DNA of 39,010 nt from the IMG/VR virus record IMGVR_UViG_3300021964_000180, positions 1 through 39,010 of that record, one strand, 5' to 3'. This document shows, piece after piece, positions 2,002 through 39,010 of this stretch (the stretch's first letter is position 1; the number at the start of each line of letters is the position of its first letter). This stretch comes from a virus. The notes under the pieces are model-generated. The model saw only the letters and a program-made list of their open reading frames with translations, was not told where the DNA came from and did no database searches. The position numbers were made by a program, and so were the translations under genes.

Positions 2002-2211
2002 TTAGGGTTGCGTTCTTCCTGTGAGCGTTGTTACTAGACAACTAGCACAGAGTATATCATCTGCATCATCTGACCAGAGTAAGTAGTCTGTACTATTATC
2101 TCCCCAAAGCAACTCAGATGTTTCTCTAGTTGTGTCTAAAGTTGTGCTAGGTTGTGTCCTACCACCCAATGTTGTACTAGGCTGCGTTCTCCCTGTTAGT
2201 GTTGTTGGCAT
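2002..2211 (-). CDS. Small repeat-containing virion-region protein, 69 aa
   Basis: Starts at ATG 2211, overlapping the stop of the upstream internal virion gene (TAATG coupling), and ends in TAA. The octapeptide TLTGRTQP occurs near the N-terminus, as TLGGRTQP in the middle and again as the last eight residues. The centre is acidic (SDDADDILC). It has no TGA codon. It lies between the internal virion protein and the tail fibre, so it is probably a small virion or tail-assembly protein. I do not recognise a family. Confidence 0.7.
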   Translation of the reverse strand: MPTTLTGRTQPSTTLGGRTQPSTTLDTTRETSELLWGDNSTDYLLWSDDADDILCASCLVTTLTGRTQP

Positions 2212-4115
2212 TATTCATTATCTTGTACTAAAGGTTCTATCTCTCATACTGTTGCTGCTATAGCCTTAGATGGCACTCAACTAGAATGTAGTAACTCAGA
2301 TATTTTTAGCATACCCTTAGGTGAACTAGCTTTACTAAGTACCAAACCAAACATTCCTCATAAGGCTAGGTCTCGTGCTGCTCATCTAAAGTCTAAATCA
2401 TTAGATATTTCAGAGTAAGCAGAGAATAATCATATACCTCCTCCTAATCCTGTAGCCAACATTCCCTGTAAGAATAATGATTTAAGTCTAACATCTTCTG
2501 CTATTTCTTTAATGAGGGCGTCTTTACTATATCCTTTATATAAATCTTTCACTCCCATATCTTTTGCAGAGTCCACAGCGTCATCCAGATAGGATTGTAG
2601 GAAATTCTTAAATTCTCTATTTATACTAGAAACAGATTTAGCTGGTAACTTAGTTTTGCTTAATGCAGCGATACTTTGGTCTCAATTTATTCTAGTTATA
2701 GTGTCTAATATTTCTTTACCATTTTGTGGTCAATCACCTATATACCAGTCAATAATGGTGTCAATTTTCTTGGTTATTTTCTTGTGTCATGCACTTCATT
2801 TCTGGAAGTTCATTAGCACTCAACCTCACAAATCACTAGTATCCTTGAATTTAACATCATCAATCATACCAATAATCTTTTCTTTGAGCATACTTTCATT
2901 AAACACACCACCCTCTAATGATTCCTTAACTAGCTTGTCTACATCATCTATATTTGTGTATTTTTTGAGGTTGGTTATAATACTCTTCTCATCAACCCCT
3001 CAAGCGAATGTTCACATTATTTTTTTATCTCCTATGAGGTCTTTTACAGCTAGATTAGGAGCTTTAGTAGATTTTCTACTCACATCAAAGATATAGTCCA
3101 CCATATTGGTTGGAGAGTCTACTCCATGTTTAACTGCGTTTTTGACCAACTTCTTAAATTCTGTTCAATCCACATAGTCAACATTCTTGACTATATCCTC
3201 CAACTGTTGTCGTGTAACATTCTTTCCAGCGTCTGCTGATTTTACTATATCGTCTAATTTACTATATTGGTATCAAGACTCTCTAATAAACTCTCAAGCA
3301 TCTTTTCCGAACAACCTATATGCCTTCTCTCTTAGACTCTTTTTTGTCATACCTATCGCTCCATCAAAAACCTTATCAGACACCTTACTCAATACTCATC
3401 ATACTCACGCAAATCAACCAGTGATTGCTCAATCAACAAGCATTTCTTTTACATCTATTTCTCATTCAGACGCAGAAGAATAGATTGCTCACTCATATAG
3501 TCCTGTCGATAATCATTGAATAATTCTAGCAGGGATTCAAGATGCTATTGTCTTCCCACCTAACTTAACAAGGGCTTTTCATTTAGTAGCTGCTGAAGCA
3601 GATGGTGCTAAAAAAGTTAATCCTATATCAGTAGCTATACCACCCAACTGAGTTCATAGCGCTTCGGGGTCTGCTCAGGTAGCTTCAAACACATCTCATT
3701 TGAGCTTGGTTCAGAATCAAGAAATTTTCTCATCTATTTGTGATAGGCTTTCTGGTGTTGACGATTCAAGACCAAACATTTTTCTATCAAGATAGTTGAA
3801 TATATTTCCTATTTTCTCTCCTCAGTTGACAACAGCCGCTGGTATATTAGCTATAGCTTGTGGAGCTTCAGCTATTACTCATTTAGCGAAATCAGATGTG
3901 AAGTCTCAAACTGACTGGAATATCCTCTGGAAATTCGATTCCTCTCTCTGTCTAGCAGCCATTTCATTTTTTTGATGATATTTCTTTTGAGAGATTTCGT
4001 ATCACTCCAATTGATTTCACCTAGATAATAGTGACTGGAAAACAGCACTAGGGTCTTGTCAATCCTCAAGGGCTTGTGCCTTAATTTTTGATTGTTCTTG
4101 CAATGAGATAAACAT
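2211..4115 (-). CDS. Large internal virion (ejection-type) protein, 634 aa
   Basis: Continuous only with TGA as glycine; I count about 37 in-frame TGA codons, more than half of its glycines. It has glycine- and alanine-rich hydrophobic stretches (residues about 180-260 and 560-600) separated by charged helical segments. That pattern fits proteins carried inside the capsid and ejected into the cell in podoviruses. It directly follows the M23-bearing virion protein and precedes the fibre. There is no recognisable enzyme motif. Assignment rests on size, composition and position and is an inference. Confidence 0.75.
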
Positions 4116-4136
4116 TAATTTATGTTATATGTAAAA

Positions 4137-6764
4137 TTATATTTTTCAAAATATATTTCTTTGATATGGGTCTTTTGTATAAGGATCGTTACTTGACATG
4201 GATGGCTGGTTAGCTGGTGTTTGATTCTGAGACTCTTCTTTTATTCTCTGTTCAATTGCTTCTATATATAAGGTAGGAGAGACTATGTCTGGTAGATTGT
4301 TCACATGAAAATCTATATCTGTGGTTGTATCAACTGGTCTTATACTAAATTCTCAATTTTGATAATCAAGGTTTCTGAGCGTGGTAGATATATCCTTATC
4401 CAATGCTCAAAAGTAGGTCTTATATCAATCAATTCCTATACCTTGTGATACAGATTCTGCAAATTTTGTATTAAGGAACTCATATGTGCTTGCATCGATA
4501 TTATCTATCATAGCAGTTATGTCCCCTTGTGATACACTAGCATCTTTTCATACTGTTGGTAGGGTTCTACTAAATGCAGCCCACTCTTCTTTACTTACTA
4601 CAGCCCCAGTTCTTGACCTCGCAAACTTATCTAAGAAATCATCAAGTCTACCGTCAAGGATATTTAATGCTTCGTCTGTTGTTTTCCCTGCATACTCATA
4701 TACTCATTCAGAGATTTTTACTATTTTCCCAACATCTCCTCAAGCTTGTGTGAAATCATCTAAAGCAAAGGCGAAGTCTATTAATTGGGATTTTAATTGT
4801 TCTCAAGTATCTACTTCTTTTATTATAGCAGGTGGTAGATTGTTTTTTCGTATTTCTTTTGTATGTCTAGCTGCTAAATCAGTTTTTCATTGGTCTATCA
4901 TACTTTGCACAAAAGCCATATTATCTCATTTTTGTGTTGTAGATGATGATAATATAACAGACTGAGCTATATCCATTAAGGAATCCTTTTGATTTTGAGG
5001 AGATACAGATCACCCACTATTTAAATATTGTTCTACCTTCTGTGGTGATATTCTTTGTCAATTAGTATCTCGTACTGTGATATCCGCATGGCTTCAATCT
5101 CAATTCTCTCATGGAATAACGAATCATGTATTACCTATTGTAGCAAACATTTGTCATTTAGTTATAGTGTCTCATGTTGTTACTCCAACATCATTAAGAT
5201 GAGCATATCTTGTTCTATTTCAACTAGTGTCTTCTACTGTAACCCAATTACCATATCAGGAAGGGTCGCTTCAATAATCTACTACTGTCCCATTAAATGA
5301 TGCCAATATAGGGTCTCATATTTTCCCATCAACATCTAATCAGTATGGGTTTGCATCTGTTCAATAGGCTGTAACCCTGCCTGTTCCGACATCACTAACA
5401 TTTCATGTTATGAAGGCACTACCAGCTCAGGCAAATATCTCTGTTCAATCTACATCAGTTATACCATAAGTTCAATCTCCATAGTCAACTAGAGAGCTTC
5501 ATGGATTTGCTTGTAATTTTGATACTATATCTAGTGCATTTCATGGGTCTGACTCCATCAATATCTTTGAATATAAGTCTAGGTTTGCATAATGCTGTGC
5601 CAATTCTGTATTACGTTGTGCTATTCAAGCCTGTGTTGTTTTAAATCATCTTTCCCATTCAGCTTGTGATTTAGTAAAATCAAACTGTTCTGCTTGAAAA
5701 TCAAACGCTCTATCTGCTTGTTTCTTAGAAAAATCAAATTGTTCCTGTTGAAGAGCAAAAGACTTTTGTTGTTGCATGAAGTTTATCATCTGAGTATCCA
5801 TACCTAGTTGTGTCTGTATCATTTGTTGCTCAAATGCTCTTTCTTCTCTTCCATCCTCTAATGCGAATTGGAATCTTCTCTCAGCGTGGCTCAACGCTGT
5901 ATTATAGTCTGTCTGAGCAAAGAATAAATCATCCTCTAGCATATCTATCTGCCTCTGTATATCCTTGTTTCTATTAGAGGTTAATGCTCTAATATATGAT
6001 TCGCTTGCTTGACCACCCTTCTCTTCTCTAATATCATCCTCAGTTTGTTTCATAATGTTTCTCAACTCTATTATCTCCTTCTGAAGAACATTATATTTAT
6101 CTAACTTATCTGTGAGTTCTGGAGTATCAAGATACTTATTATATATCTCCTCAGAGCTAATTTTATTATCTGCAATAGTCTGCATTCTTTTAATAGCGTC
6201 TTCATTATTCTTTTTCATCTGAGCGAGTAAGTCTCCAGACTCATCATAGGTACCCCTAGGGTCTCAATTAATACTAGCTAATGCCGCAGCATCATTCTGT
6301 GCATCCAACATATCTTGGAAAAGTTCAGGGTTATCTCTCTGTATAAGGTCTATTTCATCCTGACCTATATAACCTGAGTATACCCCCTTAATAACCTCCG
6401 CACCTGTTGTTGCCCCCTTAAGTCTATTTCTTGTGAAAATCTCATTCCTTATATCTCTATCTCACTCTAGGTTAGAATCCCTCACAGTGTTTTGACTTGG
6501 CTGAGTGGATGTTTGTACCACTGGGGGTGTCTCACGAGGCTCTGGTGTTTTTTTAGGTTCTGAAGTAGCGGGTTCTGCTGCGTTCCTTTCAGTTATCTCT
6601 TGCCTCACTGACGGTCTAGTGGTTGGAGTTGGCTCAGGTTGAGTTATAGACTCATTCTGTGCTCTTATTTTATCCTTGATTGTAGGATTAGCAGTACTTG
6701 TCTGCTGCGTATCTCAGATGATATCAGCGTTCTGTGCTCTAATCTTATCTTTTATGCTTGCCAT
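4137..6764 (-). CDS. Internal virion or tape-measure-like protein with M23 (LytM)-like domain, 875 aa
   Basis: Residues about 1-100 are proline- and charge-rich and carry a repeated KDKIRAQN motif at residues about 5 and 30. A long helical, probably coiled-coil region (about 180-390) contains QFDF repeats. A Peptidase M23-like beta domain lies at about 465-575 (YGLDVDGKIGDPI, YGNWVTVED, RYAHLNDVG, KGQMFATIGNTG, GSHADITV). The C-terminal 300 residues are helical. M23 domains in virion proteins typically cut peptidoglycan during DNA entry. Here the first metal histidine (HxGxD) is missing and the final HxH is HAD, so activity may be altered or lost. The M23 region is rich in TGA glycine codons. 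Confidence 0.85.
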
Positions 6765-9994: not shown

Positions 9995-10957
9995 TTATGC
10001 TGCGTTTGATCCGATAGAACTAGAACTTTCGATTCTGTAGAGTCCCTCTTGTCTTACGATAGAGAAACCAACTCTTGTTTTAACAGAAACGTTTGCTCTT
10101 TGTCTCAAGAAGTCGTCTCCTTTTCCTAATGGATCATAGAAAGATTGCATTCCTCCTGCTACTGCGTGGTGGAAAGCACTCTTACCGAAGACATATGTAG
10201 GATATACGTCTACAGTACCTGTGCTTCCTGCACCATCAGATGCGTTAGCGTAGAACTGTACGTTGCTAGATTCAACGAATCTACAACCGAACATAGCTCC
10301 TAGTTCTCCTTTGAATACTTTTTCTACATTGCTTGTGTAAGCATTAACTGGCAACCAGTCATTTGCTCCTACTGCTGCTTTCAAATCGTATGCTACATGA
10401 GGATGGATAACACAAACGTAGTATCCGTCAAATGTAGGTGCATCATTAGCTTTAAGGTTAGCAACTGCCTGTGCAATGTATTCGATTGTGATGATATCTC
10501 CATCGTCTACGTTTGTTCTTCCAGCTGATGCGTCTTCTGCAGATGAGTAGATTACGTTAGTACCAGCATCAATTGTATCCTGGTAAGCGATATCTACCTG
10601 TCTTGCTAGGTCGTTACCTAGTTCAACAGCTGCTTCTCTGATAGGTTCAATTGGGCTGTCGCTCAATACTAGGTCTGAAAGTTCAACTCTAGCTCCGTAT
10701 TGTGTAAGTGTGATTACTACAGGAGTAAGGGTGAATGCTGTTTCAGCAGGTGTAACACCTTCTGAAAGAGCAGCTACAGTTCAACTCATATCTTTTGGTT
10801 GGTAAACAGTTACAGATGTAACGCCTACGGGTTTCATGTGTTCTTTACCGAACTGCATGAAGAATCTTTTATCTTGGTAGTTTCTGTCTGCTACTTTCTG
10901 GATATATGAATCCAAATCACCAGTAGTCAACAGATTACCTTTTGTTGTTAAAGCCAT
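9995..10957 (-). CDS. Major capsid protein (N4-gp56-like, HK97-fold family), 320 aa
   Basis: Key pattern: the strand AFTLTPVVITLTQYGARVEL followed by SDLVLSDSPIEPIREAAVELG, then YVCVIHPHVAYDLK, VFGKSAFHHAVAGG and the C-terminal VKTRVGFSIVRQEGLYRIES. These are characteristic of N4 gp56-type major capsid proteins. Only one TGA glycine codon is present; the roughly two dozen other glycines use GGN. This contrasts with the neighbouring virion genes and fits selection on a highly expressed gene. It lies between the scaffold and connector genes. Confidence 0.92.
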
Positions 10958-11557: not shown

Positions 11558-11845
11558 TTAGCCTATATTATCTTCAACCTTTTGTTGCAATTGAGTAACC
11601 TTATTCCAATTAATGAAGTTCTTAGCGTATACCTTTACAGATTCTAGGTTGTCGAGATTCATCCTCATTAGATCATAGTAAGTATACAGCTTTTCATTCT
11701 TCCATGAGTCCTTAATCGTGTTCTTAGGTCTCAGGATTTGTTCCTCATTACTTTTTATTAGTTTATCTAGCTCTTCTTCCCGTAGCTGTCGCCCTGGACT
11801 CATTAACATGTCCTTAAGAGCTGCGATTTTTTGTTTTTTGTTCAT
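11558..11845 (-). CDS. Helical protein between portal and scaffold, 95 aa
   Basis: Starts at ATG 11845, coupled to the portal stop (TAATG), and ends in TAG. Lysine- and glutamate-rich and largely helical (KKQKIAALKDMLMSPGR, ELDKLIKSNEEQIL). There is no TGA codon. Its place after the portal suggests a role in head assembly; the family is not recognised. Confidence 0.7.
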   Translation of the reverse strand: MNKKQKIAALKDMLMSPGRQLREEELDKLIKSNEEQILRPKNTIKDSWKNEKLYTYYDLMRMNLDNLESVKVYAKNFINWNKVTQLQQKVEDNIG

Positions 11846-13776
11846 TATCTAGCGGATTGTAAAGATGCTGTATTACTAGCATTAGTCTTTTGAATCAAAT
11901 TAGATGTCATCTGTGATTGGAAGTTATCTGTACTCTCAGGAGCCGCTACTTGTTGTGCTGCGTCCTGTTTAGCCTGTCCAGATAGCATATATGCACTCCT
12001 TCTAGCTTCTATAGCCTTATATTTAGCATCATTATCTGGTGCAGACATATATATAGCCTCATACACTCTGTGTGGTTCGCTTAGGTCAGTAATAGGACCT
12101 AGCTCCTCATTCCTTATAAGCAATTCAAGGTCCATTTTAGCTCTTGACTCATGTATCCCATCAGGAACGAAGTATTCTGCCTTATCTTCATTAACACCAG
12201 ACACTCTAAGCATCTCTCTCTTAATAAAGTTCCTCTCATACTCACTCTTAGCATCCTGTAACAATAGTCATGCTACTGGTAGGAACGCTGCCTGGTCTTT
12301 TCTTCTCTCTTCTTCTCTCTTAGCTACACTATCTATTACTATATCTAACTTACCTATAGTAGCGAAGTCATCCTTCTTAATGGTATATACTACCTTTCCA
12401 AGTCCTGTGTTAAGGTAGATGTTCTTCTCATCGTCTGGGCTAAAGAACTCCTCGTAGAATCTATCCCATAGTCTTACAAACTTCTTCTCTGCCCAGTCAT
12501 CTACTCTGAAGCCAAGACTCATTCTTACATTAGCATTCTCCTGTATTCTTTGGTGTTCACCCTGAGTCCTTACTGTATCAGGATGTATACCCATCATAGC
12601 GTTATCCATACCTGAAGCTCTCTCTGCCTGACTCCTAAGAATCTCTGGCATGTTGTAAGCGTCAGTTTTAACCTGTGACTTAGGTACCTCTACAATACCT
12701 GCTCACTGTGAAAGGTCAGCAGCCATATATCTTGGTCCCATACCAGGCATCTTCATCTCATTTATGTCATCTATCACATTCGGGTCATATAGGAACATAT
12801 CACCAAACGCTTCATTCATAGCTTTAACCTTATTAAGGTAGCTGAACAACTGTACCGCCCTCTGCTTATCAGCAAGGAGGTCAGGAAGACTTACCCCAAA
12901 TGGGTCGTTTCTAAGAGGAATCCAGTTCCTTACAACAATTGGGAAAGGAATCATAAATGGGTCATCCTTTTCTTCTTCCAGTACAGCTTTAATCTCTACT
13001 GCCTTAATTACATTTGTCCTATCATTAGAAAGAACAAATATATAAGGGGTACCATCTGTACCTCTTGTATAATGATAGTATACTGAGTACACATTATCAT
13101 TCTGACTATCATTTATAAGTCTTGGGTATTTCTCGTTTATGTTATTCTCTGCTTGTTTCTGACTATATCCTTCTTGTACTTCCTGTTCAATCAACTTATC
13201 CAGCTTCTCCTGTGATATGGTCTTCATGCCATCTATGTTGAAAAATCAGTTCTTAGGTCTAAGGTCCGCTCTTGTTACTATCATTTCAAACCCATGCCAT
13301 CTTATGCCTGTGTTTATATCTCCATCCATATCAGGATACCATGATTCAGGTTTAACAACCTTTACTATAGGTACCTTCCTCTTATTATCCCATCCAGTGA
13401 ATACTTCAATACCTACACCTGTCATAAACTTATCATCCTGTACTGCGAACTTCTCCTGTTCAAGTCCCATCTCCTCGAAGTCGAACTTCCATAGGTTAGC
13501 TTTATTCCTCGCAGCATCTGCTCAGTTAACATCTCTCATAAAGAAACTAACAGATGGTTTGTTCTGATGATACATTCCCATGAACATCTGATGTGCCGAG
13601 AAAATCATTCTCTCGTATATCTTATCCTCCTGGTCATTTATATTTACATATAGTTGTCTGTTTTCACTTATTTGTTGGTGCTTCTCTTGCACTTTCTGCT
13701 CAACAGAGTTATATTCCCTCTGTACCGTCTCCAGAATCCACTCTTCGGTGATTCCTTTTGGTAGCTTTATTTTCAT
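11845..13776 (-). CDS. Portal protein, 643 aa
   Basis: A standard-code reading gives several disjoint ORFs; with TGA as glycine they form one frame. Features include PKGITEEWILETVQREYNS, VRNWIPLRNDPFGVSLPDLL, SQAERASGMDNAMMGIHPD and a long C-terminal helical region containing MSLGFRVDDWAEKKFVRLW. These resemble P22-like and related podovirus portals, which form the dodecameric DNA channel and bind terminase. Start 13776 is preferred over ATG 13842 because an AT-rich leader precedes it. It lies directly downstream of the large terminase gene. Confidence 0.85.
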
Positions 13777-13869
13777 AGTAAAAATTTGACTAAATAAGTA
13801 AGTCTTCTCACAATACCCAATTGTATAACTAAAAAAATCCATTTGTCAAGGGGCATTTTTATTTGAGAC

Positions 13870-15321
13870 CTAGTAAAATCATGTAACCTGTTGTGTGAAG
13901 CTCTTTCCCATTGATTTCCTTTTTTTACTTTTAAGCATACTTACCGCTCAGGAGAGTGCATCTATAACGTCATCATGTTTACCAGAGGGGAATTTGAGTA
14001 GTTCAGACTCAAGTGTATTTATGTTTTTACCCCTTCTAGGGTGTATTACGCTATGGCTGCTATACCTACCACCTAGTGTACTAGTTATCCTTGCCTCTTT
14101 CTGTCCCATAGGTCTTATCTGCTCAAGTCTAAAGAAGCTATCTCTTGTTCTCATCTGCTTCTCTATCTCTAATGCCAGCATCTTCTGGAACGCTACTATC
14201 TCTACCCCTACCGAATTGGGTCTAAACTGTTCAACAACCCTAAAAAGCTCATCATACATCTGTCCAGGGAGTACCTTCCCCTGGAATACATCTAGCACAT
14301 ATATATTATTGCTCCTTTTATCAATACCCACTGTAACAATAGCTGTATAATCAGCACTCTGCTTCTGTGATATAGCTGGGTCAATGAACGTAGCTATCTG
14401 CATGGGTATCCTTATGTTATTCTTCTCATCATATATCTCATGCCTATCATAATACTCAAACATATCCTGGGTGAATATACCCTCTGTGGGTGTATAAGGC
14501 TCCTGCATATACAAGCTATTCCAATCATACTCCCCTACAGTCTTCCTTGTAATATCTCGGAAGTTCTCATCCCATCCTTTCAGGTCTCGTTTAATATATC
14601 CCGTCTCAGGAGTCTCAGCAGGTATTTTAATGACTTCCCGCTCCTCTCAGGTATCTTCTGCTTTCTCTAATAACCATCCAGCGAGGTCATCCTCATGCCA
14701 CCTGGTACACATCACTATAATACTTGCATCAGCATCCATCCTTCTAGTAAAAAACGTACTTGTATACCAGCTCTTTACCTTCCTTCTATACGCATCACTC
14801 TCTGCATCCTCTCTATTCTTCACGGGATCATCAATGATGCCTATATCAAACCCCTTACCTGTCAAGGGACCACCTACACCTACCGAATAGTATCCTCATC
14901 CTTTCCTAAGCTCCCAGTTAGGACCGCTATCCTTCTTAAGTTTAAAATCAGGAAAGACATTCCTGTACTCCTGCTCCTTAACAATATCTCTCGTAAGCCT
15001 ACCAAACTCTTCAGCAAGCAAGGCAGAATAGGAGCAGCATACTACCCTCTTATCAGGATTCCTGCCCAGGAACCATGCAGGAAACTGCTTACTAACAAGC
15101 TCACTCTTCCCCATCCTAGGAGGACAGAAAACCATCAACCTCTTAATCTCTCACCTCTCTACAGCCTCTAGCTTCTGTATAATAGTATCATGTATCTCTA
15201 GGTCTCCTAACTTAGCTCACCTATCATAAGACGGAAAGGTATAATCAATAAACCTGCCCAAGTTCCTATATGCCAGCTCACGCTTTGCAGACTCTATCGC
15301 TGCCTCTTTTGGTGTTATCAT
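13870..15321 (-). CDS. terL: Terminase large subunit, 483 aa
   Basis: The N-terminal ATPase domain has Walker A CPPRMGKSE (residues 66-74), Walker B GIIDDP (about 161-166) and a coupling motif near CTRWHEDDL. The C-terminal RNase H-fold nuclease has FIDPAISQKQSADYTAI (about 314) and the final metal motif GKHDDVIDALSG (about 449). It packages DNA through the portal and cuts concatemers. Start ATG 15321 lies just after the stop of the 112-aa gene. About six TGA codons fall where glycine is expected, for example LRKGGGYYSVG and the G after VIDALS. Confidence 0.95.
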
Positions 15322-16035: not shown

Positions 16036-16180
16036 ACTAAAAATAAATCGGTTTTTCCCCTTAAATCATGTAGATGTCTTAACATATCATTGTCCTCTAC
16101 CCAATCATCTATTGTCCCGTCACATCAGATCCATGTTAATCTCATAATTATTGGGTGGTGCTTTACCAAACTAAGCTACA

Positions 16181-16254
16181 TGCCCCCCTTCGGATTCGAA
16201 CCGAAACTGTACGCGTTCTAAGCGCGCTATCTCTGCCAATTGGATTACGGGGGC
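16181..16254 (-). tRNA. Atypical class I tRNA, anticodon UAG (reads CUA, Leu?)
   Basis: The acceptor stem pairs GCCCCC with GGGGGC, discriminator A73, and a G-G mismatch at the last pair. The T arm is canonical (TTCGG, loop TTCGAAT, CCGAA). The anticodon stem GCGCG/CGCGT closes loop CTTAGAA, giving anticodon UAG. The D arm has G18G19 and A14 but a weak stem of about 3 bp. The variable loop is only about 5 nt, unlike bacterial leucine tRNAs, which have a long arm. CTA codons are common in this genome, so it may supplement host decoding. Charging identity is uncertain. No 3' CCA is encoded. Confidence 0.8.
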
Positions 16255-16406
16255 ATGATATAAGTCCTTTTTATTTTGTAGAAAATTTTTGAGACCCTTT
16301 CTAACGCTAACAATTATTTTTCAACTCGGTACACCCCACCCCCTATCACGTTTCCAGCTTTTGTCAAGCCAATTATCACAAGCCAACAAATTGTCAACAA
16401 ACATTA

Positions 16407-32997: not shown

Positions 32998-33117
32998 ATG
33001 CCAAAAATAATAAAGAGAGGGAAACCATTTGGATTGAAAATATACCGACCACCTAAATACAAAAATAAACTAATCACAATCAAAATATTCTATTTAGTTT
33101 TCTATATAAAATGCTAA
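32998..33117 (+). CDS. Possible small basic peptide, 39 aa
   Basis: MPKIIKRGKPFGLKIYRPPK and a hydrophobic end; overlaps the GlyRS-like start by 7 bases (ATG inside its last codons), a coupling style common in this genome. Short, so uncertain. Confidence 0.35.
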   Translation: MPKIIKRGKPFGLKIYRPPKYKNKLITIKIFYLVFYIKC

Positions 33118-33797
33118 AAATTTACGAAAACAACTGACTACTCTTCCGAACACAAAAAGACATAGAGCTTAGAGAGTTTTTTGTAAAGAATATCAGCGAA
33201 CAGCTAAAACATTTCCTAAAAACAATAAATCACTCTTTTGATTTTCAGAGAGTGGAAGCTAGTCAGTTGACCCCAATTGATCTTTTGAATGAAAACTATA
33301 CAGAAGATGATTACTACAAAGTAGATGACTTAGCTCTTAGACCAGAGACTACAATGGGGAGTTTTGCCTATGCAGACCACATACTAAACCCACACAACAA
33401 ACCAAAAACAAGATTGCCTATTGTAGTACGACAAGCAGGTAAGTCTTTCAGGAGAGAACAAGATAAGGTTTTGAAGCACATGAGATTAAAAGAGTTCTAT
33501 CAGCTAGAGTTCCAAGTAATATACTCCAATACAACAGCAGATGATTATTATGGTAGAATAGTAGAATATATAGACCTACTTCTTAGCTCCCTTGTGTGAG
33601 ATACTAGATTAGAACCAAGTGATAGATTGCCCAGCTACTCAGAAATAACTACAGATGTAATAATGGAATGGAATGACATGGAGATATGTAGCATCTCCAA
33701 AAGAAAAGACTACCACGATGATATAGTGACAGAGGTTGCTATAGGTCTCGATAGACTTGTATACAATTATAATTGCATTCTTTGAGAAACGCTTTAA
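33111..33797 (+). CDS. Glycyl-tRNA synthetase-like class II catalytic core, 228 aa
   Basis: ALRPETTMGSF (residues 75-85) matches the GlyRS-specific LRPETAQG element. RLPIVVRQAGKSFRRE (101-116) plus MRLKEFYQLEFQ (124-135) is class II motif 2. CSISKRKDY (193-201) matches the GlyRS ARGDYDL-like strand and VAIGLDRL (209-216) is motif 3. The protein stops there: there is no C-terminal anticodon-binding domain, and the usual insertions are gone (known GlyRS subunits exceed 400 aa). Three of its glycines are TGA. It could charge tRNA-Gly, including one reading UGA, or a tRNA-like RNA, or be a repurposed core. Confidence 0.82.
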
Positions 33798-34882: not shown

Positions 34883-34909
34883 TCGTAAGGTAGATTACGA
34901 GTTTTTTCT
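34883..34909 (+). terminator. Intrinsic terminator of the early strand
   Basis: TCGTAA / TTACGA stem, 6-base loop GGTAGA, followed by GTTTTTTCTT. Positioned to stop plus-strand transcription before the convergent minus-strand gene. Confidence 0.7.
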
Positions 34910-35256
34910 TATCTTTTCACATCTTTCTTATACCAATACTCATCATCATCTTCTGATAACACCTTCATTATATCCCTGGATAACTCATCGGTAAGAGCTG
35001 TATGGTTTAACTCCAGTAGTCTTATCAGTTGCTCCCTAGGATCTAGATTACCAAATACTCTATGTAGTGCCTCATGTAATACCTTATATAGTTTTACCTT
35101 ATTTTCTCTTACATTGCTCCCACCCCTACTCCTTGGTACTATATGATGTCAGTCTTCCTGGTAGTGTATATGTTTCTTTCACCTATCTATATTATTAAGA
35201 TATGGTACATATATATTATCTTTCTTGTTATTATATTTATGAGCAAGTGTTTTCAT
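34909..35256 (-). CDS. HNH endonuclease, 115 aa
   Basis: Core DGHHIVPRSRGGSNVRENKV followed by LYKVLHEALHRVF, a compact HNH domain (first glycine TGA). Starts inside the stop of the upstream gene (TAATG). The C-terminus is an acidic helical tail (SEDDDEYWYKKDVKR). It may be a packaging-associated or homing nuclease at the end of the late transcript. Confidence 0.85.
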
Positions 35257-35495
35257 TAATTGGGTCTTTCAACATATAAAATATTATTATCTAGGAACTT
35301 ACGAAGTGCTAGATATAAATCTTCCTGGACCATCTCTGTTAGTCTATACCATTGCTCATCTGTTTGTTTTATACCTACCATCTCTATAATCTGTCTAGCC
35401 GTCTCCATTCTCTTTTTCATATACATAGAGTTCCCTATAGAGATACACTCATCTCAATCCTCATTAATGAAAGTAAATATAACTGATTGTTTCAT
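35256..35495 (-). CDS. Small helical protein coupled to the HNH gene, 79 aa
   Basis: MKQSVIFTFINEDGDECISI then helices KKRMETARQIIEMVG and QWYRLTEMVQEDLYLALRKF. One TGA glycine. Its only clear partner is the downstream HNH gene, with which it shares a 1-base overlap in the TAATG. Confidence 0.65.
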
Positions 35496-35771: not shown

Positions 35772-35954
35772 TTACAATTCCTTATATCTTTGTAAAATAT
35801 CTATTAAGTCATCCAATACTTCTTGGATAGGTTCATACTCTCTCCAGCCACCTCATAGTCTATCTAGGAGATCAGATTGAATAATGTGCATCTTTTGGTT
35901 GTACTTCATTAAGTCTTGCGTAGTAGGTTTTTCTCTTTCAAAGAGTTCAGGCAT
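35772..35954 (-). CDS. Small helical protein after the endolysin, 60 aa
   Basis: Starts at ATG 35954 in the TAATG of the endolysin stop. MPELFEREKPTTQDLMKYNQ and two further helices; one TGA glycine (RLGGW). May be a lysis accessory by position. Unknown. Confidence 0.6.
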
Positions 35955-36826
35955 TACATATACTTAGTAGATAAAAATTCCTTATGCTCATCACATAGTT
36001 TCATATTCTCATGTAGGTCTCTATACATAGGATTCATTACACAACCATCATTCTCACAATGCCCACATCCTATAGCGTGTCCTACCTCATGGGTGACACC
36101 ATACAGGAACTTATAGTCATTCTTCCAATCGAACTCATCATTAAAAAATACTCTACCGAATCAACCTTTAGCTAGTCAGTTCTCTGGGAACTTCACAGGC
36201 AGGTCATCATTCGTTCAGGTGAATATCTGTAGGTGTGCAGCAGAGATATATTTAGTAGATTGGAATCACTTACCAATATAGGGAGACCAGAAGTTGATAC
36301 CATTACTTACCATAATAATAGCCCTGTATTTATCTAACTCCTCTGGTCGAGAATCTAAATGCCAGAATACTTTACCATCTCTATAGGGTATTACATAATC
36401 CTTAGTTTCCATAGTGTCTTTAGAGGATAAACGTGGTGCATTGTACCAACCTAGTACTGTATCATATGTGTATGTATTTAAGCGTATAGCATCATTTCCT
36501 AGACCATTTCAAGCCCCTTCTCATCCGTTTTGTTCTATTACTTCTATTCACCAATCAAATGCTTGGGTAACTATAGCAACATGACCATAAGGAGGGTAGG
36601 TGTCAAAGAATATCATATCTCAAGGTATTGGTCTACCTGTTCATCTATCGTATCAATTGAATGTACCATTGACGTTCTGCCAACCAAGTTTAGCACTTCA
36701 TCAGAAGCTACCTAGCTGAATACCATAGAGTTCTTTCCATGCAACCTTACACCAACCTACACACTGGTATCAATATCAGGGTTCTCATACTCTACTACCT
36801 ACATACTTATCAATAAGCTGTTGCAT
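35954..36826 (-). CDS. Endolysin: CHAP domain fused to archaemetzincin-like (M54) metalloprotease, 290 aa
   Basis: The N-terminal CHAP/NlpC-like domain has active Cys in YGYQCVGWCK (C22) and His in PPYGHVAIVTQ (H82), with later polar residue EQN. The C-terminal domain carries HEVGHAIGCGHCENDGCVM (246-264), an exact fit to the archaemetzincin signature HExxHxxGx3Cx4CxM, then Met-turn-like NPMY and a distal C278xxH281 in place of CxxC. It lies directly downstream of the holin with a TAATG overlap. About fifteen TGA glycines. It would cut wall peptide bonds, and the second domain perhaps a protein target. Confidence 0.88.
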
Positions 36827-37044
36827 TAGTCTTGTGGAGTAAATGTTTCTTTATCAGCAAATGTTTTGATTTCATTAGCTCTTTGTCAGAAGAAAAAAGC
36901 AACAACAATCATAATCACATCCTTGAAGGTATCAGTTACTTCTATTCAAGCTATACTCATATAGATGAGTGCAGCGATCATAATAAGTAAAACTATCCTT
37001 GTGCTTGAAGTAATCCAAGGCATTACTGTTGTAATAAATTTCAT
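36826..37044 (-). CDS. Holin-like two-helix membrane protein, 72 aa
   Basis: Two hydrophobic helices (RIVLLIMIAALIYMSIAGI and VIMIVVAFFFGQ) and a charged C-terminal tail. Size, topology and immediate position before the endolysin indicate a holin that opens the membrane at lysis. Two TGA glycines. Confidence 0.75.
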
Positions 37045-37066
37045 ATTATGAAATAAGGAATTAAAA

Positions 37067-37144
37067 CTACCAATCACGACTCTTACCTCGTATCACGAGT
37101 ATAAGCATCAAGATCATAATGTAAATTCATATATCATGTACCAT
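37067..37144 (-). CDS. Possible tiny membrane peptide, 25 aa
   Basis: MVHDIGIYIMILMLILVIRG, a single hydrophobic helix with a basic tail, one TGA glycine. An overlapping frame gives a 33-aa alternative (MMKMCRNFCLVTNHG...). Lysis regions often hold such peptides. Confidence 0.4.
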
Positions 37145-37199: not shown

Positions 37200-37475
37200 C
37201 TATCTCTTAATGTAGTTACTTATATCATTTATTCAATTTTCTATTGTTTCTAGTTTTGTTTCAATTCTTGTGATAGAGTTATCAGTATCATTACGCCGTT
37301 TTAATATAATCTTATCGTTGTCTTTAATCTCTCTAATGTCTTGTGTATTAACACTTACCTGTGAATGTATTCTTGCATATATCATTCAAGCAGAAAATGT
37401 AGCTATTGCACATGCTACTACTACAGATAAGTTAGTTAGAATTTTAGTTTGTTTAGTGATTTCGGTAGTAGTCAT
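37200..37475 (-). CDS. Membrane coiled-coil protein of the lysis region (spanin- or holin-partner-like), 91 aa
   Basis: N-terminal helix VVVACAIATFSAGMIYAR spans the membrane. The remainder is a coiled coil (VNTQDIREIKDNDKIILKRR, ITRIETKLETIENGINDI). A single anchor plus coiled coil upstream of the holin is the layout of inner-membrane spanin-like or holin-modulating proteins; which one is not decided by the sequence. Confidence 0.65.
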
Positions 37476-37484
37476 AGATAAAAC

Positions 37485-37904
37485 TTAAAGGTATAAATAC
37501 TGTGCAGGGTATACGTCTCAGGTTGTCTCGTCTATCGTCTCAGGTACAGTCTCAAACTTATCAGGCTCTACCTCAGTAAATCTTTTAGATAAAGATCTCT
37601 TTGCCTGTGCTTTAGTAATCTTAGTTATATTCATCATATCTTTCAGTTTCTTAATTGCTGTCATAAATTGAGTCTCATCTCTTAGTGTATCATCAAACTC
37701 TATCACAGCGAATCACTTAGTGTCATCATATACTTCTTGTATATCCATATTGTATTCTGTTTTGTAGTCTTTTATTTCATGTTCTGGAAACCTAGCTGTT
37801 AGAAACTCAGGCACTCAACTTTCTATGAAGTATCCTAGTGTATACCTAGAGTCATTCTTTCAGTTATCTAACCATTTTCGGTCTCGTGTCACGTATAGTT
37901 TCAT
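37485..37904 (-). CDS. Tail-region accessory protein, 139 aa
   Basis: MKLYVTRDRKWLDNGKNDSR, then SGVPEFLTARFPEHEIKDY and a helical, lysine-rich middle; ends VYPAQYLYL. Four TGA glycines. Follows the LamG fibre gene with a TAATG overlap. Possibly a fibre chaperone or attachment protein; the family is not recognised. Confidence 0.65.
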
Positions 37905-38641
37905 TAGTCTCGTGAAGAATAAAGTAAACCACTACCTGAGTTATATAGGTCTGCTATTTTAGTAGAACCAAGTGAGGCATCTCGCATAGCCATCTGGTCA
38001 AAATATCAATTCATAGGTAAGGTAGTCGCTGTATTGAATGCACTTACCCATAAGTTATTTGTCGCAGCAGTTGAAGTAGTCAATACTACACTACTACTTG
38101 TTTTTACATTAGAACCATCTACCCAAAAGTTTATATCTGTACCATCTCCTTCTACCACTATATGATGCCAGTTATTGTCTCCTATAGCACTATCATGTTG
38201 GACATTATAATTAGTACCTGGACCATGAGTTACATAAAGTCTTAATCTGTGAGGCGAGCCTTGTGATGTCCTATTATCATAAAACCAAGATACTCAATAA
38301 TTAGAACTAGACCCTGCATTATTGACAACTATACCATTAGCATCATCAGCGTTGTAATTATTTAATTTCATCCGAACAGATATAGCAAAGTCTCCTGTCT
38401 TATGTATGAAATCAAATTTATCATTAAGGTCTATATAACTATTTGAATCATTATATGATGACGAGTAAGTACCAAGTTTGACTGTACCTGTGCTGTAAGA
38501 TACATTGCTGGCTGTACCATCAAAAGAACCTGTCTCATCAGTAGCATCATTTTCAAACTCATAACAAGAGATATTGTTTGTAAGCAAACCATTAGTGGGT
38601 ACTCCTCCTCATCTAAAACTCTTTCTCCTATGTAATAACAT
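37904..38641 (-). CDS. LamG / concanavalin-A-like fibre protein, 245 aa
   Basis: Pattern typical of LamG modules in phage fibres: NGLLTNNISCYEFENDATDE, GTVKLGTYSSSYNDSNSYID, DFAISVRMKLNN, NWHHIVVEGDGTDINFWVDG and NGYFDQMAMRDASLGSTKIA. It probably binds sugars on the host surface as a receptor-binding or fibre-tip protein. Begins just after the stop of the tail fibre fragment. Confidence 0.85.
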
Positions 38642-38644
38642 ATC

Positions 38645-39010
38645 TTACCATTGGCTATAAGATAAATCTGCTCAGTATTGTACTGCTACTCATAACAACT
38701 TAGCATCTTCTGTCATATCATCATTTACGTCTCCTACTTTTCTAGCGACATTAAATACAACAACATCTCATGCAGCAGGTGTATTACCTATGGTTACTGC
38801 ACCACTTGCAGCACTTATGTGCATATCTCATACTGCTATTACTGTATCATCTACTTCTACTTCTGTACCCCAAGTTCCGTCTATAGCATCATCATTACTC
38901 AATGCCCTACCTTTGATACCCCAAGTGACTCAATCACTTGCAGTAGCACCTGTAGCTGCATCCCAATAGAATTTTACTTTTACAGTAGAACCATCCCAAT
39001 TGTCAGGAAG
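38645..39010 (-). CDS. Tail fibre protein, C-terminal 121 residues (runs off the right edge)
   Basis: Open from 39010 to TAA 38645. LPDNWDGSTVKVKFYWDAAT, WGIKGRALSNDDAIDGTWG, HISAASGAVTIGNTPAAGDV and VFNVARKVGDVNDD form the beta-sandwich end domain that usually closes fibres like the one at 1-1982. The junction residues fit each other (…ENCQF / LPDNWDG), so this is probably the end of that gene on a circular map. Confidence 0.8.

Follow-up and report, generated by a model that had tools for sequence, protein, structure and literature searches.

A single gene in the virus record IMGVR_UViG_3300021964_000180 encodes a protein in which a CHAP domain is fused to a zinc-protease-like domain of the metzincin type. 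The gene lies at positions 35954–36826 on the minus strand of the window, by which we mean the whole 39,010-base record, and specifies 290 amino acids under genetic code table 25, with 15 in-frame TGA codons. Residues 17–100 (36527–36778, minus strand) match the CHAP family PF05257 with an E-value of 5.3e-11, and residues 139–290 (35957–36412, minus strand) score above the cut-offs of both PF00413 and PF07998, with a predicted fold like that of matrix metalloproteinases (MMPs). Since all three profiles exceed their curated cut-offs, the domains are not chance matches, and their presence in one frame confirms the initial annotation, which had described the two halves as joined in a single gene. 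We propose that the protein is an endolysin with two activities, in which the CHAP domain would act on peptidoglycan and the metzincin on envelope proteins, a reading to which we give an even chance of being correct.

On the minus strand, table 25 gives an uninterrupted frame of 290 codons followed by a stop. The plus strand of 35954–36826 is ruled out by stops throughout, and tables 11 and 15 are ruled out because neither gives a long frame. Across the window, open genes appear only under a code in which TGA specifies an amino acid, and the ORFs picked hold 333 in-frame TGAs. In an alignment of the TerL of the window (13870–15321, assigned by a family match) with 15 standard-code relatives, in-frame TGAs fall opposite Gly in 25 of 50 non-gap cells, and table 25 (TGA=Gly) therefore fits. 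In the lysin itself, TGA-coded G69 aligns to a conserved P0002 glycine whose codon is not TGA. The sequences thus support TGA as glycine in this window. The frame of the fusion gene is continuous and its two halves, with GC contents of 0.385 and 0.375, carry 11 and 4 TGA codons; the unbroken frame, the shared use of TGA and the closeness in GC argue against an assembly join. We take the virus to be a tailed phage, with family matches to a head-tail adaptor (11845–13842) and a major head protein (9995–10957) in addition to TerL, and its genetic code points to a host that reads UGA as glycine, of the Absconditabacteria/Gracilibacteria type.

The PF05257 match of the CHAP half reaches 43.3 bits against a cut-off of 26, and C22 and H82, the conserved CHAP Cys and His, are in place as the catalytic pair of a CHAP endolysin and are invariant across three code-25 phage lysins. 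The surrounding minus-strand genes run in the order 37904–38641 (a weak match to a virion structural protein family), 37485–37904, 37200–37475 (a 91-aa protein that shows a single hydrophobic stretch near its N-terminus by hydropathy and has no Pfam family, possibly a lysis accessory), 36826–37137, the lysin, 35772–35954, 35256–35495 and 34909–35256 (a weak HNH match, below cut-off). The gene at 36826–37137 encodes a 103-aa membrane protein (hydropathy peak 2.41; phrog_13256), and its stop overlaps the lysin start in a TAATG; the stop of the lysin overlaps, again in a TAATG, the start of the 60-aa ORF at 35772–35954, which has no family match and could conceivably encode a regulator of the lysin. 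The initial annotation had placed the lysin next to a holin. A small membrane-protein gene does adjoin it and is coupled through TAATG, but as phrog_13256 has no known function, we refer to this protein as a holin candidate.

The C-terminal half carries the motif HExxHxxGxxHCx4CxM at residues 246–264 (36035–36091, minus strand), combining the zinc ligands and the Met-turn. The match to this archaemetzincin signature is exact, as had been noted from the first inspection: H246 E247 V G H250 A I G253 C G H256 C257 x4 C262 x M264, with the catalytic Glu and all three His retained. Thirteen residues after M264 (x13) follows a distal CxxH at C278-x-x-H281 (residues 278–281; 35984–35995, minus strand), and motif and distal site together hold four of the six cysteines of the protein. 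By analogy with archaemetzincins (PMC3427221), C257, C262, C278 and H281 probably bind a second, structural zinc. The published archaemetzincin consensus has x17 before a distal CxxC (PMC3427221), and the fusion protein has x13-CxxH in place of this four-cysteine arrangement.

How unusual this arrangement is can be judged from other viral proteins. A search of viral_contigs with HExxHxxGxxHCx4CxM rendered as DNA found 88 stretches besides the window, which gives 89 proteins with the window's own copy. Such viral archaemetzincin-motif proteins (L002–L089) are common and mostly 160–240 aa long. A distal CxxC is present in 81 of the 89 (window included in the total), at a spacing of 9–18 residues from the Met, with 12 the commonest value (48/81) and the published 17 rare (4/81). 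Only three proteins have a distal CxxH (the window's, L015 and L082), and in the other five, including two that end no more than five residues past the motif, no CxxC or CxxH occurs within 35 residues. The initial annotation described the distal site as CxxH and closer than usual; both points stand relative to the published consensus, yet x13 is an ordinary spacing among viral motif proteins. In tracing known archaemetzincins mainly to archaea and animals, it was too narrow, given the 88 viral-contig stretches and a distribution that is reported to include bacteria (PMC4681839). By a crude hydropathy rule, the N-termini of the 89 proteins are hydrophobic in 72 cases, lipobox-like in 8, neither in 5 and open at the 5' end in 4, the window being entered in this count by a short table-11 fragment. 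Most viral motif proteins therefore look exported or anchored, with a hydrophobic or lipobox-like N-terminus in 80 of 89. Our own three-sequence CHAP HMM, applied to table-11 frames up to 4 kb on each side, found CHAP in or beside none of the 88 other M54-motif loci and none of 119 matrixin-motif loci among the matches listed, though a CHAP neighbour could have escaped because this HMM is narrow and the matrixin loci are those among the matches listed.

The family to which the C-terminal domain belongs is harder to name. PF00413 (M10, matrixin; E 2.9e-07, 30.9 bits against a cut-off of 24) aligns over residues 153–277 and so spans the domain, and PF07998 (M54; E 6.7e-07, 29.9 bits against 24.4) aligns over residues 241–267, the 27-residue zinc motif only. 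The outcome depends on the length of the query: a 51-residue motif fragment scores better with M54 than with M10 (1.1e-07 vs. 1.1e-06), and the 152-residue domain better with M10 than with M54 (4.7e-08 vs. 2.4e-07). Going from the last 51 to all 152 residues, PF00413 rises from 29.0 to 33.5 bits and PF07998 changes from 32.4 to 31.4. The matrixin features HExxHxxGxxH and a Met-turn are present, with PF00413 above its cut-off, but PF00413 also cross-matches viral M54-motif proteins, two of three tested being above the cut-off. Residues 139–245 by themselves have no relevant family or chain match. NCBIfam archmetzin gives the fusion protein 27.5 bits against a cut-off of 145. Its best PDB sequence matches are matrilysin chains (8.9e-08), and 3lmc, annotated as 'Peptidase, zinc-dependent' and presumably an archaemetzincin, matches at 0.0012. 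In the matrilysin alignment, which is weak in this region, the positions that we take to be the His ligands of the S-loop structural zinc have no His in the fusion protein. An HMM of 41 viral M54-motif proteins scores the fusion protein at 41.4 bits over residues 242–288 only, with the 85 M54 members tested at 63.7 bits or more and the 90 viral matrixins tested, from among the matches listed, at 37.8 or less; an HMM of 71 viral matrixins, also among the matches listed, gives it 32.2.

The structure model of the C-terminal half was made from 77 rows (the window, 41 viral M54 proteins and 35 of the 71 viral matrixins) and has a mean pLDDT of 68.6, with the active-site helix, Met-turn and C-terminal helix at ~79–94 (blocks of ten) and model residues 1–11, 14–23, 53–66 and 71–84 below 50. 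The best Foldseek match is matrilysin 1mmp (E 4e-4), and comparison with MMP-9 by VIA gives a Z of 9.1 for 130 aligned residues (3.3 Å, 18% identity); because both families were fed in, this fold is a guide and not proof. No archaemetzincin chain is among the structure matches listed for the model, which is not informative alone, and a comparison with viral models returned nothing at E 0.001 or better. In a whole-protein model from a three-row alignment, the C-terminal half has a pLDDT below 40 and is unusable. The predicted fold is of the metzincin type, as the initial annotation supposed, although this model of moderate quality is closest to matrix metalloproteinases.

We reject a clean archaemetzincin, since the Cys4 site is Cys3His, and do not accept matrixin membership as proven, since residues 139–245 alone match no family. 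From the mixed profile, HMM and model results, we therefore file the domain in neither M54 nor M10. Sequence and model together hint, if weakly, at a matrixin-like body, to which an archaemetzincin-like zinc tail appears to be joined. The earlier name 'archaemetzincin' thus holds for the motif and fails for the distal site and for an M54 profile match of only 27 residues. The opposite outcome that it had allowed for, closest homologues being matrixins without the Cys pattern, is half borne out, matrixins being the top matches for the domain as a whole in both sequence and fold.

The initial annotation suggested looking for the same fusion in other CPR phages, and none turned up in viral_contigs, genome_contigs or the phage collection: whole-protein searches of these returned no relative, so the fusion is a singleton on one contig whose conservation cannot be shown. 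The C-terminal half gave only chance-level matches to phages and plasmids (best E 0.05). Searches with the neighbouring proteins P0002, P0003 and P0004 returned nothing beyond the phage of origin or a near copy, the head protein found one 4-kb contig, and TerL reached 47 loci with a best identity of 40%. Against 15 of the records holding these loci, the lysin matched two, G004 (3.2e-18, 41% over residues 3–131) and G007 (6.9e-7), in both cases through the CHAP half only. Both are TGA-recoded phages (TGA=Gly) and their CHAP lysins are without a metzincin domain. Because these lysins have no such C-terminal domain, the protease can be seen as a detachable module, either gained by a shared type of CHAP lysin or lost elsewhere; the comparison gives no direction. 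The nearest TerL relative, G001, is likewise TGA-recoded and has a plain Amidase_2 lysin with no protease domain.

In the lake phage G004 (L137, 1483–2544), a 208-aa protein begins three bases after the CHAP lysin and has Cys52, His156 and Asn171-SWG in what we take to be papain-like spacing, with no family or structure match. In G007 (L138, 1001–2046), the CHAP lysin comes directly after a 147-aa HEWCHH protein that is SprT-like at E 0.013, below cut-off. These neighbours offer no more than a lead towards a general pairing of CHAP lysins with proteases in TGA=Gly phages; of the three such relatives with a located lysin, the third, G001, has a plain amidase.

For the two-activity endolysin, the events at lysis might run as follows. 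The small membrane protein encoded upstream would act as a holin that opens the inner membrane and releases the fusion protein, which would need such help because it has no hydrophobic segment along its full length. On arrival at the wall, the CHAP domain would cleave peptidoglycan, and the metzincin, with a catalytic zinc on H246, H250 and H256 and E247 as base, would cleave cell-envelope proteins; the ultrasmall cell would then open and the progeny exit. A surface layer or contact structures of the host, the targets first suggested, are plausible substrates. Indirect support for a protein target in this host group comes from the SLH-domain proteins that code-25 Absconditicoccaceae are reported to encode, along with every step of the peptidoglycan pathway (PMC13059738), and from the giant surface proteins reported for Vampirococcus (PMC8080830).

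The protein could instead be a virion-borne entry enzyme, its CHAP and metzincin domains piercing the envelope at DNA injection and not at the end of infection. Domains of this kind are often present in phage virions, and the gene follows same-strand ORFs at 37485–39010, including the one at 37904–38641 that weakly resembles a virion structural protein. However, the block at 2211–6764 contains a better entry candidate, and TAATG coupling ties the fusion gene to that of a small membrane protein, so that we consider an entry role unlikely. The candidate in question is an 875-aa protein (4137–6764, minus strand), likely a virion wall-cutting enzyme, whose interior holds an M23 peptidase domain (residues 474–573, E 6.6e-18).

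A decidedly unlikely alternative is that the metzincin domain is no protease and, stabilised by zinc, serves to bind the cell wall or surface. Its place at the C-terminus is the usual one for the binding domains of Gram-positive endolysins. A non-proteolytic archaemetzincin-like family does exist, going by the name of NF033824 and by CarG (PMC3427221), but CarG has lost the Glu (PMC3427221), whereas the catalytic Glu and the three His are retained here. We think it very improbable that the metzincin cleaves the lysin or another phage protein, for self-processing or lysis timing, and not host proteins; the lack of an evident propeptide or export signal of its own means that some other control would be needed, and the 60-aa ORF is coupled downstream, but no direct evidence for such cleavage was found.

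Among known systems, archaemetzincins (M54, PF07998; AfAmzA, MkAmzA) share HExxHxxGxxHCx4CxM with the fusion protein and have additional Cys for a second zinc beyond the Met-turn (PMC3427221); besides its different distal site, the fusion protein departs from them in its CHAP domain, seen in no other viral M54-motif protein examined. Matrixins (M10A, PF00413; MMP-7, karilysin) provide its best whole-domain profile, sequence and fold matches, but the fusion protein has a Cys pair past the third zinc His, and no propeptide Cys switch was seen. A role for a metzincin in lysis has a precedent in Listeria, where Mtz-Tim, with a phage-derived metzincin encoded near holin-lysin genes, raises sensitivity to phage lysis (PMC8235301). 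Listeria Mtz, by contrast, is a separate secreted protein with a signal peptide and a TIMP-like partner, unfused to a lysin (PMC8235301); the fusion protein has no hydrophobic N-terminal segment, and its coupled 60-aa ORF matches no family. Mycobacteriophage LysA is likewise modular, with two catalytic domains and a complex envelope to breach, but its N-terminal peptidase domains (M23, L-Ala-D-Glu, RipA-like or C39-like) are taken as peptidoglycan-acting and are not metzincins (PMC3314691).

We found no publication on a covalent endolysin-metzincin fusion in the open-access literature, and a paper on code-25 phages (PMC10746230) makes no mention of lysin, endolysin, protease, peptidase, S-layer or holin. 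As far as the open-access literature searched goes, both halves are known, as is a separate phage metzincin that helps lysis; what is new is the CHAP-metzincin fusion and the joining of a matrixin-like body to a Cys3His tail. Should the C-terminal half prove active, lysis would be a two-substrate process in which one polypeptide attacks both the peptidoglycan wall and a protein coat. This would add a covalent form to the single published case that we found of a phage metzincin aiding lysis, along with a metzincin variant intermediate between two textbook families, and would offer a direct way to ask what keeps the envelope of uncultured CPR epibionts intact, together with a reagent with which to open their cells. 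A broader conjecture, which we regard as rather improbable, is that phages of ultrasmall, S-layer-bearing UGA=Gly epibionts evolved proteolytic endolysins, in which a protease fused to or encoded next to CHAP would have to breach the coat for the wall to give way; the protease here would be of an undescribed metzincin type, with a matrixin-like body and an archaemetzincin-like Cys3His tail.

Several smaller observations concern the records searched and the decoding of the window. The only genome_contigs match to the window TerL (L141) is in a MAG labelled Methylomirabilis. The record 'Acinetobacter phage MD-2021a' (L143) has two matrixin genes in a stretch with dnaK, grpE, purE and purK, and so looks like bacterial chromosome, at least there. 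The sole tRNA gene that ARAGORN detects in the window is a tRNA-Leu (16180–16255, minus strand); it detects no tRNA-Gly(TCA), whereas the published patesciphage RSA-ATP1 is reported to differ in this respect. Finally, the ORF at 33111–33797 (plus strand) encodes a 228-aa protein with a tRNA-synthetase class II core (PF00587, E 1.2e-07), the top PDB matches of which are glycine-tRNA ligases (E 6.7e-05), making it a small glycyl-tRNA-synthetase-like gene within a phage that reads TGA as glycine.
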